64,000 bases of DNA, from the NCBI RefSeq assembly GCF_019697375.1, contig NZ_JAHCDI010000003.1, positions 682,001 through 746,000 on the forward strand, read 5' to 3'. Of this stretch, positions 49,713 to 63,672 are shown piece after piece; the first letter of the stretch is position 1, and each line of letters opens with the position of its first letter. Under the pieces are notes generated by a model that made no database searches, was not told the origin of the DNA, and was given only the letters and a program-made list of their open reading frames with translations. The DNA is from Micromonospora tarapacensis. GTDB lineage: Bacteria; Actinomycetota; Actinomycetes; Mycobacteriales; Micromonosporaceae. A program made the position numbers and the translations under genes.

Positions 49713-51862
49713 GTGGTGGTTAACTCCGCGTCCGAACGCGTGCTCGCCGGGCTCGATCCGGAGCAGCGGTCGGCGGTGATCGCCCCGGCCGGTCCGGTCT
49801 GCGTGCTTGCCGGCGCCGGCACCGGCAAGACCCGGGCGGTGACCTCCCGGATCGCGCACCGGGCACTGATCGGCGAGATATCGGCCCGGCACGTCCTCGC
49901 CGTCACCTTCACCGCCCGCGCCGCCGCGGAGCTGCGGCATCGGCTCGTCCGGCTCGGCGTGGCCGGCGTGCAGGCACGCACCTTCCACGCGGCGGCCCTG
50001 CGCCAGGTCCGCTACTTCGCGCCCCGGATGCTCGGCGGGCGGGCCATGCCAGAACTGCTGGACAGCAAGGTCCGGCTGGTCACCCTCGCCGCGGCCCGGG
50101 CCGGACTGCGGGCCGACCGGGCGGCGGCGAGGGACCTCGCCGGTGAGATCGAATGGGCGAAGTCCTCCCTGGTCGAGCCGGGCGAGTACGTGGTGGCCGC
50201 GGCCAAGGCGCTGCGGGAGACCCCGCACGATCCGGCGAAGGTCGCCGAGGTCTTCACCGCCTACGAGAAGTCGAAGCGAAGCGGCGGGGTGATCGACTTC
50301 GAGGACGTGCTCCGCGCCGCGGTCTGGGGGATCGAGGAGCATCCGGACGTCGCGGAGCAGGTCCGCGGCCAGTACCGGCACTTCGTCGTCGACGAGTACC
50401 AGGACGTGAACCCGTTGCAGCAGCGACTGTTGGACGCCTGGCTCGGTGGCCGTGACGACGTGACCGTGGTCGGGGACGCCAGCCAGACGATCTACTCCTT
50501 CACCGGCGCGACGTCGTCGTACCTGGTCGACTTCGCCCGCCGGCACCGGGGCGCGACCGTGGTCCGACTGGTTCGCGACTACCGGTCCACCCCGCAGGTG
50601 GTCGGGCTCGCCAACGCGGTCATCTCGCAGGCGCGAGGTGTCGAGTCGCGGCTGCGCCTGGAACTGGTCGGCCAGCGCCCGCCCGGTCCCGAGCCGGAGC
50701 GGCGGATCTTCACCGACGAGCCGGCCGAGGCGACCGCGGTGGCCGCCCGGTGCCGCGCGCTGGTCGAGGCCGGCACGCCGGCCCGTGAGATCGCCGTGCT
50801 GTTCCGCACCAACGCGCAGTCCGAGGCATACGAGAAGGCGCTCGCCGAGGCGGGCGTGCCGTACCTCATCCAGGGCGCGGAGCGGTTCTTCGAGCGGCCG
50901 GAGATTCGCCAGGCGATGGTGGCGTTACGTGCGGCGACCCGGTCGATCCCCGGCGAGACCCCGCTGCGGACGGCCGTGGTGGAGGCACTGGCCGGCGTCG
51001 GGTGGGCCCCGACGCGCCGCCGCCCGGTGGGGCCGCCCGGGAACGGTGGGAAGCGCTGGCCGCGCTGGTCCAACTCGCCGAGGAGTACGCGGCGGCCCCC
51101 GAGATCCTGCCCCTCGGGGTGGCCGCCACGGTGGAACGCCCGACCACGCTTGTCGCATTCACCGACGAGTTGGCCCGGCGGGCGGCTCAGCAGCACGTCC
51201 CGACCGTGGACGGGGTGACCCTGGCCTCCCTGCACTCCGCCAAGGGCTTGGAGTGGGACGCGGTCTTCCTGGTCGGCCTCGCCGAGGGCACCCTGCCCAC
51301 CACGTACGCCCGCACCGGCGAGCAGGTCGAGGAGGAGCGTCGGCTGCTCTACGTCGGCGTCACCCGCGCCCGCCAGTGGCTCTGGCTGTCGTACGCCTCG
51401 GCGCGCTCGCCGGGCGGGCGGGCCCGGCGACCGTGCCGGTTCCTGCCTCAGCTGGCCCCCGCGGGCGGCGCGGAGCGGGCGACCGGCGGCGGGCCGGCGC
51501 CTGGCCAGCAGCGGCGGGCCACCCGGATCGTCTCCTGCCGGATCTGCGGGGCGACCCTGCTCGCCGGGCCGGACCGCAAGCTCGGTCGCTGCGCCACCTG
51601 CCCCTCCGACATCGACGACGAGCTGCACGAGCGGCTGCGCGAGTGGCGGTCGCGGGTGGCCGGCGCGCAGAAGGTCCCCGCCTACGTGGTCTTCACCGAT
51701 GCCACGCTGGTCGCGCTGGCCGAACGGCGGCCGGGCCGCGCCGAGGAACTGGTCGCGATCGCCGGGATCGGGCCGCGCAAGTTGGGCCTGTACGGGGAGG
51801 CGGTGCTGGCGTTGGTGGAGGGCGCCGCAGTCGACCAGATCTGCCCGGAGAAAAGTTTCTGA
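49713..51862 (+). CDS. uvrD2: ATP-dependent DNA helicase UvrD2 (one-base frameshift near 51010)
   Basis: A superfamily 1A helicase: Walker A GAGTGKT, motif II VVDEYQDVNPLQ, GDASQTIYSFTGA, SLHSAKGLEWDAV, YVGVTRARQWLWLS. The C-terminus has the tetra-Cys zinc element (CRICG ... CATC) and an HRDC domain (VPAYVVFTDATLVALAE, IAGIGPRKLGLYG), the defining UvrD2 layout. The frame breaks after GVGWAP; one extra C in the CCCC run joins WAP to DAPPPGGAARERW and gives 716 residues. In mycobacteria UvrD2 is essential, so a sequencing error is likely. Its stop lies just upstream of the whiB7 promoter. Confidence 0.93.
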
Positions 51863-51870
51863 ATCTGACC

Positions 51871-51910
51871 GTTAATTCGTTTGCCCTCGCCCCACCGGCC
51901 GGCATAGCCT
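51871..51910 (+). promoter_or_regulatory. Probable whiB7 promoter with AT-rich upstream element
   Basis: -35 TTGCCC (51881-51886), 18-base spacer, -10 TAGCCT (51905-51910). The AT-rich block GTTAATTCGT directly abuts the -35, as at promoters activated by WhiB7 with SigA (known from mycobacteria and Streptomyces). Autoregulation is therefore likely. Confidence 0.65.
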
Positions 51911-52001
51911 CAGGGCACACCTCGGGAGGGGGCCCTGTTCGGGCTGCTCACGGGGTCTGTGTTCGGGTCGACCACGAGTGAAGGTCAAGGAGGTGGCACC
52001 G

Positions 52002-52286
52002 ATGGAGAGCTACATCTACCAGCGTCCGACGGCGCTTCCCGTTGCCGTCGCTCCGCTGTCGGCTGCCCTGGCCACCGTCGCTCCGTTGACGGGAGGCGGG
52101 GTCGCCGCCGTCGCCACGCGACCGTGGGCTCCGCAGGCGCACCGGATCGAGGTTCAGGCCGAGCTGATCCTCGCACCGATGCCGAACGGGCTCCAGGGAA
52201 GCAGTGGCTTCACGGGCAAGGGCGTCGATGGCGTCGACAAGCGGATGGACGTCCGCGGTGTTCCACCTCGAGGTAGACCGGTCTGA
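52002..52286 (+). CDS. 94-codon leader open reading frame of whiB7
   Basis: ATG 52002 has a strong AAGGAGG site eight bases upstream. The frame (MESYIYQRPTALPVAVAPL...) ends at TGA 52284-52286, inside the hairpin region just before the terminator. No homologous family is recognised. whiB7 leaders in other actinobacteria carry upstream reading frames whose stalled translation by antibiotics prevents termination; this one is longer than the mycobacterial uORF. Alternatively it is a separate small protein. Confidence 0.55.
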   Translation: MESYIYQRPTALPVAVAPLSAALATVAPLTGGGVAAVATRPWAPQAHRIEVQAELILAPMPNGLQGSSGFTGKGVDGVDKRMDVRGVPPRGRPV

Positions 52287-52357
52287 CCAACCAGACCACC
52301 GGCTCACCTCGAGGCCGCGGAACCCGCACACCGGGATCCGCGGCCTCAGTTTTTTTT
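52263..52357 (+). promoter_or_regulatory. whiB7 transcription attenuator
   Basis: Terminator: GAGGCCGCGG (52311-52320) pairs with CCGCGGCCTC (52338-52347), followed by eight T residues (52350-52357). Competing structure: two copies of CACCTCGAGG (52264-52273 and 52305-52314). Their self-complementary CCTCGAGG cores can pair with each other and occupy the 5' terminator arm (antiterminator). Between them is a hairpin GGTCTG / CAGACC. This is the layout expected for antibiotic-induced antitermination. Confidence 0.8.
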
Positions 52358-52421
52358 GCACCGCCGAAGTACGTCTGAACAGCGATCCACGAGATCGCAG
52401 TGAGAGAGAGGTGACCGGGCG

Positions 52422-52787
52422 ATGAGTCTGGCGTTGGCCCCACTCGACGTGAGCGTCGAGGTGGAGGCGAACCTGCCCTGCCGGAAGTTCGACCCCGACC
52501 TGTGGTTCTCCGACTCGCCCACCGAGCTGGAACTGGCCAAGTCGCTCTGCGGGGACTGCCCGCTGCGCGTCGAGTGCCTGGCCGGCGCGGTCGAGCGCGC
52601 CGAGCCGTGGGGCGTCTGGGGCGGCGAGATCTTCGAGCGTGGCGCGGTCGTTCCGCGTAAGCGGCCCCGGGGCCGGCCACGCAAGGAGGACCTCGCCCGT
52701 GACGCGGAACTGCGGGTCGAGGCCGAGGCGCGGCTGGCGGCCAACGGGCTGTCCGCGTCCCGCAGCGCTGTCCGGCTGGCTGCCTGA
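52422..52787 (+). CDS. whiB7: WhiB7 iron-sulfur transcription factor, antibiotic-resistance master regulator
   Basis: A 121-residue Wbl protein. Cluster ligands are Cys20, Cys43, Cys46 and Cys52 (CGDCPLRVEC); GVWGGE at 64-69 is the sigma-interacting turn; the AT-hook RGRPRK at 83-88 is specific to WhiB7. It activates resistance genes with SigA after ribosome-targeting antibiotics. It lies beside uvrD2 and upstream of a convergent ABC1 kinase, the conserved actinobacterial position (Rv3197A). Confidence 0.97.
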   Translation: MSLALAPLDVSVEVEANLPCRKFDPDLWFSDSPTELELAKSLCGDCPLRVECLAGAVERAEPWGVWGGEIFERGAVVPRKRPRGRPRKEDLARDAELRVEAEARLAANGLSASRSAVRLAA

Positions 52788-56979: not shown

Positions 56980-57606
56980 GCCCGACGTGTGGTGGTGGCG
57001 CTGCTCGCGCCGGTCCCCTGGACGCCACCCGGTCTCGACCCCGTGCAGTGGCGCGGGGCGCTCGCCGAGGACGTGGTGGATCTGCTCGCCATGCTCAACG
57101 AGGTGGACACCGCGGTGGCGGTCACCCGGGCGGACCGCTGGCTGGCCGAGGCGGTGATCTGGCCCGGCACGCGCGTCTACGAGGTGCCCGAGGCGACGCC
57201 GAACGCCGTCTTCGCCGCGCTCGGCGGGCCTGACGTGCTGGACGGTGGTTACGAGCAGGCGGCGGTGGTGGCCGGTGACGCGCCCGACCTGCCCGGACTG
57301 ACCGTCGGAAAGCTGCTGCGCCCGCTCACCAGCCGACCGGTCGCGCTCGCCCCGGTCGAGGGCAGCGTTCCCGGGTTGCTCGGGGTGGCGGCCCGGCTGC
57401 CCGCACCGTCGTGGCTGCCGCCGCTGGACATGGACGCCGCGGTGCCCGCGGACGTGCGCGCGACCGCACCCCGTCCGGGCGACCTGGCCGTGACGCCCTC
57501 CTGGCACCGGCTGCGGGGGCCGGCGGACCTGGCCCGGCTCGACCCGGCGCTGGACGGGTGGGAGAACACCCGCGCCCTGCTCTCCGGCACCGGGACGCGC
57601 GGCTGA
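56977..57606 (+). CDS. Hypothetical protein, DUF2064/glycosyltransferase-like fold suspected
   Basis: A 209-residue soluble protein. QAAVVAGDAPDLPGLTVGKLLRPLTS followed by VALAPVEGSVPGLLGVAARLP resembles the core of nucleotide-diphospho-sugar transferase-like DUF2064 proteins, where an Asp in the first segment binds metal. Other landmarks are weak, so function is open. It follows the YgjP-type gene by 23 bases on the same strand with its own -10 box. Confidence 0.65.
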   Translation: MARRVVVALLAPVPWTPPGLDPVQWRGALAEDVVDLLAMLNEVDTAVAVTRADRWLAEAVIWPGTRVYEVPEATPNAVFAALGGPDVLDGGYEQAAVVAGDAPDLPGLTVGKLLRPLTSRPVALAPVEGSVPGLLGVAARLPAPSWLPPLDMDAAVPADVRATAPRPGDLAVTPSWHRLRGPADLARLDPALDGWENTRALLSGTGTRG

Positions 57607-57654
57607 GGCTCGCGTCGCCCGGCGCGCCGGCGCCCGGCCGGCCGGGATGATCTG

Positions 57655-63356: not shown

Positions 63357-63430
63357 CGCGGGGTGGAGCAGCTCGGTAGCTCGCTGGGCTCATAACCCAG
63401 AGGTCGCAGGTTCAAATCCTGTCCCCGCTA
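63357..63430 (+). tRNA. Initiator tRNA-Met (CAU), copy 1
   Basis: A full cloverleaf of 74 bases without encoded CCA. The acceptor stem has an unpaired first position (C1 opposite T72) and the anticodon stem has three consecutive G-C pairs (GGG/CCC) around CTCATAA; both are hallmarks of initiator tRNA. T-arm GGTTCAAATCC is normal. Confidence 0.95.
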
Positions 63431-63440
63431 CGACTGGAAC

Positions 63441-63472
63441 GAGGCCCCGGGATCCGTCCCGGGGCCTCTTTT
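63441..63472 (+). terminator. Terminator of first initiator tRNA
   Basis: GAGGCCCCGGGA / TCCCGGGGCCTC with a TCCG tetraloop followed by TTTT. Confidence 0.85.
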
Positions 63473-63588
63473 CCGTTCCGCGCCAGGCCCGCCCGCGGGC
63501 AACGGCGTCGACCGGTGCCCCGCTCCGACGGATCGTCGGGGGTGGGCGAATGGCGGCGGCGGTGGATGGGGTAGGGTGGATCTAGCGA

Positions 63589-63662
63589 CGCGGGGTGGAG
63601 CAGCTCGGTAGCTCGCTGGGCTCATAACCCAGAGGTCGCAGGTTCAAATCCTGTCCCCGCTA
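63589..63662 (+). tRNA. Initiator tRNA-Met (CAU), copy 2
   Basis: Identical to copy 1 over all 74 bases, with the same initiator features. The three bases before and ~40 after are also identical, including the terminator hairpin, so the unit is a recent duplication. Confidence 0.95.
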
Positions 63663-63672
63663 CGACTGGAAC

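Follow-up and report, generated by a model that had tools for sequence, protein, structure and literature searches.

Introduction

Attenuators of whiB7/wblC that work through an upstream open reading frame (uORF) are said to have been set out for Streptomyces and mycobacteria by Burian and Thompson in 2018 and by Lee, Lee and Roe in 2022, the latter reportedly being the primary paper. WhiB7 itself is described as central to the intrinsic resistance of actinomycetes in the available sections of PMC11550727 and PMC10727445. The second of these describes the actinobacterial whiB7 gene as typically having a long leader that contains a uORF and a terminator; when ribosomes stall, an antiterminator forms from sequence that overlaps both. 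The available portions of PMC11550727, PMC4128351, PMC13236596 and PMC13393426 agree with this account of whiB7/wblC attenuation through a uORF. An initial reading of the present locus from sequence only had regarded leader attenuation of whiB7 as already known elsewhere, and with the mechanism in print in PMC10727445 this holds. The leader studied here therefore belongs to a known design, of which it is one well-preserved copy.

We analysed a whiB7 leader from Micromonospora tarapacensis; "the window" below is the whole stretch of DNA, 64 kb in length, in which it lies. From sequence comparison and folding models we consider it likely, at a probability of roughly 0.9, that this leader, with its uORF and two folds predicted to exclude each other, is a ribosome-coupled transcription attenuator. 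Among the papers listed by our search of the open-access literature, none deals with the whiB7 leaders of this family, the Micromonosporaceae, and a survey of novel RNAs in 50 genomes (PMC11109978) has no mention of "whiB" or "wbl". Four points could be added to the published design: an overlap between the two folds of only four bases (GAGG), a choice between them that should be kinetic, a nearly neutral uORF body, and a Pro-Pro end of the uORF that hints at a possible brake over arm 1 of the antiterminator.

The whiB7 gene and its leader

The identification of the gene at 52422..52787 as a true whiB7 is well supported by its sequence. The 121-residue product matches the Pfam Whib family, its closest solved relative is the WhiB7 chain 7kif (E 4.9e-33), and in the alignment it carries EPWGVWGGE, which includes the GVWGG motif, and the AT-hook RGRPRK; a comparison with NCBIfam gave no match at 0.001. 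The best 80 named whiB7 relatives come mostly from Micromonospora, one of them identical across the 77 residues compared. A strong whiB7 match was obtained in 146 of 150 genomes of the family, and 144 upstream regions were examined. Across family genera the gene shows dN/dS values of 0.06–0.22, summed over pairs with no tree. In one family genome (G088, a single contig, listed as 100% complete) the best whiB7 match reaches only E 6.5e-10, while its genus mates have a strong match.

Upstream of the leader is a UvrD2-like helicase gene (49713..51862) with UvrD and HRDC domains, in which two frames meet near 51000. Nine of its relatives, among the matches listed, read through in one frame; the break is either a genuine mutation or an artefact of sequencing. 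Elsewhere in the window ARAGORN predicts a tRNA-SeC on the reverse strand (57546..57642), which is absent from the Rfam matches and hints at selenoprotein synthesis, and within 63357..63663 two genes for tRNA-Met, scored equally by Rfam, lie about 160 nt apart. Rfam at gathering scores left the leader unmatched and called only two tRNAs in the window.

All the features of the leader, like whiB7 itself, are on the forward strand. A −35 element TTGCCC (51881..51886), recognised from the sequence and from comparison of family promoters, is followed after 18 nt by a −10 element TAGCCT (51905..51910), which would place the transcription start near 51917 and give a leader of about 505 nt up to whiB7 at 52422. 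An AT-rich block, TTAATT (51872..51877), lies 3 nt 5′ of the −35 element, at the place of reported WblC/WhiB7 binding. Both the promoter with its abutting AT-rich block and the leader of about 500 bases had been read from the sequence at the outset, and both are upheld. The promoter geometry is present in all 140 family loci scored, compared with 7 of 2800 mononucleotide shuffles, and the position of the block holds a 6-mer with at least four A/T in the same 140. The spacer measures 18 nt in 132 of these loci and 17 nt in the other 8, and the −10 element is most often spelled TAGCCT (104), TAACCT (17) or TAGCGT (16). For WblC a GAAAWY motif and its spacing to the −35 element are reported in the available text of PMC7157823; TTAATT differs from this motif at two of six bases, and the block may be a site of WhiB7 autoregulation. 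A simple consensus scan, at the settings used, called neither promoter nor terminator in the leader. An inverted repeat resembling GAGCRGC...GCTGYTC (51915..51965), found at the same place in several of the relatives listed, is possibly a hairpin at the 5′ end of the leader.

Further downstream a strong Shine-Dalgarno sequence, AAGGAGGTG (51987..51995), recognised from the sequence and the family comparison, precedes a predicted uORF of 94 codons (52002..52286) that begins with ATG and ends in RGVPPRGRPV and a TGA stop (52284–52286). The sequence-only reading had called the leader complete; the parts of the attenuator that it named stand, but it had missed this uORF, the would-be link of the RNA switch to ribosomes. 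The Shine-Dalgarno region of whiB7, GAGAGAGGTG, is at 52404..52413.

Two predicted rival folds

The sequence CCTCGAGG occurs twice in the leader. The first copy (arm 1, 52266..52273) is within the final codons of the uORF, where it is read as CCT CGA GGt, and the second (arm 2, 52307..52314) lies beyond it; covariation and folding support their pairing. Between them is an inner stem and loop (52274..52306), in which 52274–52285 would pair with 52292–52306 and which contains the uORF stop. These are the only copies of CCTCGAGG in the window. Their number is ordinary, as 2.88 are expected by chance per 64 kb, while their separation of 41 nt is unusual, with simple arithmetic predicting about 0.007 such pairs.

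The second fold is an intrinsic terminator (52311..52357), seen by folding and in the family alignment. A perfect ten-pair stem followed by eight Ts had been proposed here; the terminator and the T8 run (52350–52357, preceded by AG) are retained, whereas the stem consists of 11 pairs (52311–52321 with 52337–52347) and a further 4-pair upper stem, with a folding energy of −31.2 kcal/mol. The antiterminator and the terminator have only four bases in common, the GAGG of arm 2 (52311–52314), and are predicted to be mutually exclusive.

Folded alone, the antiterminator (52264–52314) has an energy of −28.2 kcal/mol (z −5.97, none of 200 shuffles reaching it) and the terminator (52287–52349) one of −33.1 kcal/mol (z −7.06). 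The full-antiterminator and full-terminator states, at −49.9 and −51.7 kcal/mol, are at most 1.8 kcal/mol apart. At equilibrium, and with no ribosome, the transcript from 52200 to 52357 forms the terminator with a probability of 0.90, which speaks against a purely thermodynamic switch. Nascent RNA ending between 52330 and 52343 instead forms the antiterminator with a probability of 0.92–0.99, and the antiterminator loses once the last bases of the terminator emerge. When arm 1 is masked, as it would be by a ribosome on the last uORF codons, the terminator probability becomes 1.00. Since the terminator is favoured at equilibrium, the choice that permits read-through should be kinetic.

Conservation in Micromonosporaceae

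To find the arms in other loci of the family we used a pattern that admits non-complementary arms, applied within 420 nt of whiB7 and counting G-U as a pair. All eight arm pairs can form in 142 of 144 loci, the exceptions being L117 and L126, each with 7 of 8 pairs; the arms of L126 lie 483 nt upstream, beyond the first search range. The commonest spelling is the palindromic CCTCGAGG/CCTCGAGG found in the window, with 98 of the 142 loci, followed by CCTCGAGA/TCTCGAGG (15), CCTCGAAG/CTTCGAGG (11), CCTCGAGG/CCTTGAGG (9), CCTCGAGG/CTTCGAGG (6), CCTCGAAA/TTTCGAGG (2) and CCTCGGGG/CCTTGAGG (1). Three of these seven spellings change both sides of a pair.

An alignment of 135 distinct family sequences over a stretch of about 118 nt allowed both folds to be compared. 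The antiterminator is paired in 90.4% of cells, falling to 24–43% when it is slid by 1–3 columns, and one of its inner pairs is unpaired in 86 of the 135 sequences. Covariation of the family leaders, named at the outset as a check, amounts to 81 cells with two-sided changes against 20.8 ± 3.8 in shuffles. These compensatory changes support an attenuator in which the two copies of CCTCGAGG pair against the terminator, as the sequence-only reading had suggested. The terminator is the better conserved fold, with 97.7% of cells paired, and compensatory changes maintain both folds. The CCTC of arm 1 is invariant in all 135 sequences, as would be expected if the GAGG sequence had two partners to serve, though the search pattern fixes part of each arm and so partly imposes this invariance, the four arm pairs that never vary being partly a product of how the loci were picked.

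The uORF is also a feature of the family, with a Shine-Dalgarno match of at least 5 nt in 140 of 142 loci. We counted frames in the 125 loci that have a start with a Shine-Dalgarno match of at least 6 nt, 150–450 nt upstream of arm 1 (the other 17 being without such a start), and in 124 of them this start shares the frame of arm 1, with no stop in between. Length varies from 77 to 282 codons with a median of 98.5 (140 loci, match of at least 5 nt), the longest being cases without a stop near the arm. In 126 of 142 loci the stop comes 18–27 nt after arm 1 begins and in three more 30–36 nt after it, while one genus lacks a stop within 27 nt in 13 of its 15 loci. In none of the 15 loci of that genus (L121, L122, L124, L125, L128, L133–L135, L137, L138, L140–L144) does the uORF end 18–21 nt past the beginning of arm 1; the stops lie 24–258 nt past it, in 11 cases past about 95 nt, which is beyond the terminator, and the L135 frame continues into whiB7 with no stop at all. 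The arms of this genus are nevertheless maintained, through changes on both sides (CCTCGAGA/TCTCGAGG).

In five genera (16, 14, 11, 7 and 15 loci) the uORF body has dN/dS values of 0.74, 0.83, 1.00, 0.91 and 0.93, summed over pairs with no tree and lying within the range of a shifted-frame control (0.62–1.22). By this sequence measure the body is nearly neutral, with almost no amino-acid constraint, which argues against a drug-specific arrest peptide encoded there; we do not retain that candidate. No conserved run of codons for a single amino acid was seen in the body. Alanine makes up 15.1% of the family uORF residues scored and 14 of the 94 here, a figure that includes any effect of GC-rich codon use.

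Distribution beyond the family

A covariance model was built on the Micromonosporaceae alignment and searched against genomes. It finds one real place in the genome of the window and matches 58 of 61 family genomes, including 57 of 57 good ones, with all 58 matches lying 31–432 nt from a whiB7 match. Matches on the opposite strand coincide with the sense element, as is usual for hairpins. At E ≤0.01 the model matches 181 of 246 genomes of the class, from 77 of the 103 genera sampled (its own genus included). The CCTCGAGG antiterminator had been thought special to this lineage and perhaps undescribed; with the fold this widespread, and the mechanism published in the available text cited above, we reject a lineage-specific element. 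Reuse at other genes was likewise rejected: four second matches in the family search (L230–L233, E 3.8e-5 to 7.1e-4) have no WhiB gene within the 1.3–1.4 kb taken, and these weak matches are probably due to chance.

Among outside loci, picked from the better matches, a WhiB gene is present in 76 of 78, the exceptions being L225 and L226, and an AT-hook-like string lies downstream in 66 of 67, counted with a loose pattern in any frame and with no control. Arm 1 most commonly contains CCTGGAG (23 of 67 loci). Two-sided changes recur at the fourth arm pair, with GC in 22, CG in 18 and TA in 12 of 57 loci. The uORF ends in WSPP plus one residue in 20 of 58. Mycobacterium loci, among 43 further loci, match only weakly (E 1e-6 to 0.006), and the model therefore does not cover all whiB7 leaders. 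It could nevertheless be applied to the annotation of many such leaders across the class, the mycobacterial ones being weakly matched.

Discussion

The behaviour that we infer for this leader, including its response to antibiotics, translation of the uORF, ribosome-polymerase coupling and early termination, would run as follows. In an undisturbed cell, a ribosome that arrives at the end of the uORF would cover arm 1, so that the terminator could complete against the T-run and transcription would stop early. A drug or starvation that holds ribosomes early in the uORF, or a state in which none start, would leave arm 1 free to pair with arm 2 before the 3′ strand of the terminator is made. This would pull the terminator stem off the T-run, and RNA polymerase would continue into whiB7, whose product would in turn stimulate its own promoter by way of the AT-rich block. 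The choice between the folds would be kinetic.

The alternative that fares best, though we hold it to be unlikely, is that the conserved end of the uORF encodes an arrest or slow-translation peptide, G-V-P-P-R-G-R-P-V, which would sense drugs directly or park the ribosome, and that the peptide and the kinetics of the ribosome, beyond simple coverage of arm 1, set the switch. We examined 124 family uORFs with a Shine-Dalgarno match of at least 5 nt whose stop comes no more than 27 nt after arm 1 begins, 18 of the 142 loci having been dropped for a weak match or a distant stop. Their end has the fixed form G-(V/I/L)-P-P-R-G-R-P-V-stop. The Gly three codons before arm 1 (−3) and the Pro one codon before it (−1) are present in 124 of 124, encoded by four and three different codons respectively, as a constraint on the peptide would allow. 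Against this, extended pairing of the antiterminator in nascent RNA (GCGG:CCGC with a probability of 0.97 at 52322, GTTCC:GGAAC with 0.99 at 52326) can account for the same bases, and the third base of the codon at position −4 from arm 1 is always C, which an RNA constraint predicts. Selection on the peptide is therefore not established by the invariant Gly and Pro, since RNA pairing explains them as well.

Pro-Pro within the last ten residues occurs in all 124 family uORFs, where the second Pro sits in arm 1, is always CCT and is thus fixed by the arm, and in 36 of the 58 outside uORFs, directly before the last residue in 31 (58 of 67 outside loci gave a uORF with a Shine-Dalgarno match of at least 5 nt). 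Three mycobacterial uORFs that were read, 47–49 residues long and Ala-rich, end without Pro-Pro, so a brake, if there is one, would not be a general feature. The bodies are in turn poor in such pairs when 40 hand-picked family representatives and 57 outside uORFs, sequences that share history, are compared with shuffles: Pro-Pro occurs 4 times against 20.5 expected in the family and 5 against 16.1 outside, Gly-Pro 3 against 24.1 and 14 against 24.6, and Pro-Gly 9 against 24.2 and 16 against 24.6. In 30 ordinary proteins of the window the corresponding ratios are 0.93, 1.02 and 1.07. Other dipeptides also depart from the shuffles, however: in the family VV is scarce while AP and PV are in excess, and outside it TT and QQ are in excess. 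When the same DNA is read in shifted or antisense frames, the Pro-Pro ratio ranges over 0.50–1.29 and Pro-Gly is low in several frames. The depletion is suggestive only.

A related and equally tentative idea is that the uORF acts as a ruler of ribosome progress that is blind to sequence, with an open body poor in Pro-Pro, Gly-Pro and Pro-Gly and a terminal Pro-Pro that parks the ribosome on arm 1. If this were so, only unhindered translation would lead to termination, and any drug that halts ribosomes earlier would give read-through. The near-neutral body and fixed end thus pose the question of whether the uORF is read only for the progress of ribosomes, with its last codons providing the timing.

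Much less probable is a simple terminator that reduces whiB7 expression to a constant degree and in which the arms are incidental. The terminator does win at equilibrium and is the better conserved fold, but such an element leaves unexplained the compensatory changes in the arms, both within and outside the family, and the fixed relation between the uORF frame and arm 1. Least probable of all is a ligand-binding riboswitch or protein-bound leader in place of a uORF switch. In its favour, the leader is long, structured and without an Rfam family at gathering score; against it, the roughly 118 nt aligned keep two helices and a uORF end, not an unpaired core, and the known biology of whiB7 is that of ribosome stress.

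The proposed ribosome-coupled attenuator can be set beside several described systems. The ilvB1 leader attenuator of M. tuberculosis, in the available sections of PMC13236596, is similar in that translation of a uORF decides between antiterminator and terminator, but unlike amino-acid attenuators of that type the whiB7 uORF has a body that changes freely here. The attenuators of the ABCF genes tiaA and are5sc, as described in the accessible part of PMC12421871, respond to ribosome-targeting drugs through a terminator and antiterminator, as this leader would; their uORFs have 3–9 codons and stall ribosomes at the start codon, whereas the uORF here has 94. The toiL uORF of E. coli topAI, in the portion of PMC12121999 available, would resemble it in that one uORF senses several drug classes, and differs in gene and host; the same source describes ribosome stalling within the whiB7 uORF as untested. 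Closest are the whiB7/wblC attenuators themselves (PMC10727445 and PMC11550727, in their available text), with which this leader shares the gene, the long leader, the uORF, the terminator and an overlapping antiterminator. Four marks of that group are found together here, namely a true whiB7, a predicted uORF with its Shine-Dalgarno sequence, a terminator, and an antiterminator that overlaps both uORF and terminator. What sets this copy apart from whiB7/wblC attenuators elsewhere is that its arms are the palindrome CCTCGAGG used twice and that its uORF ends in PPRGRPV.
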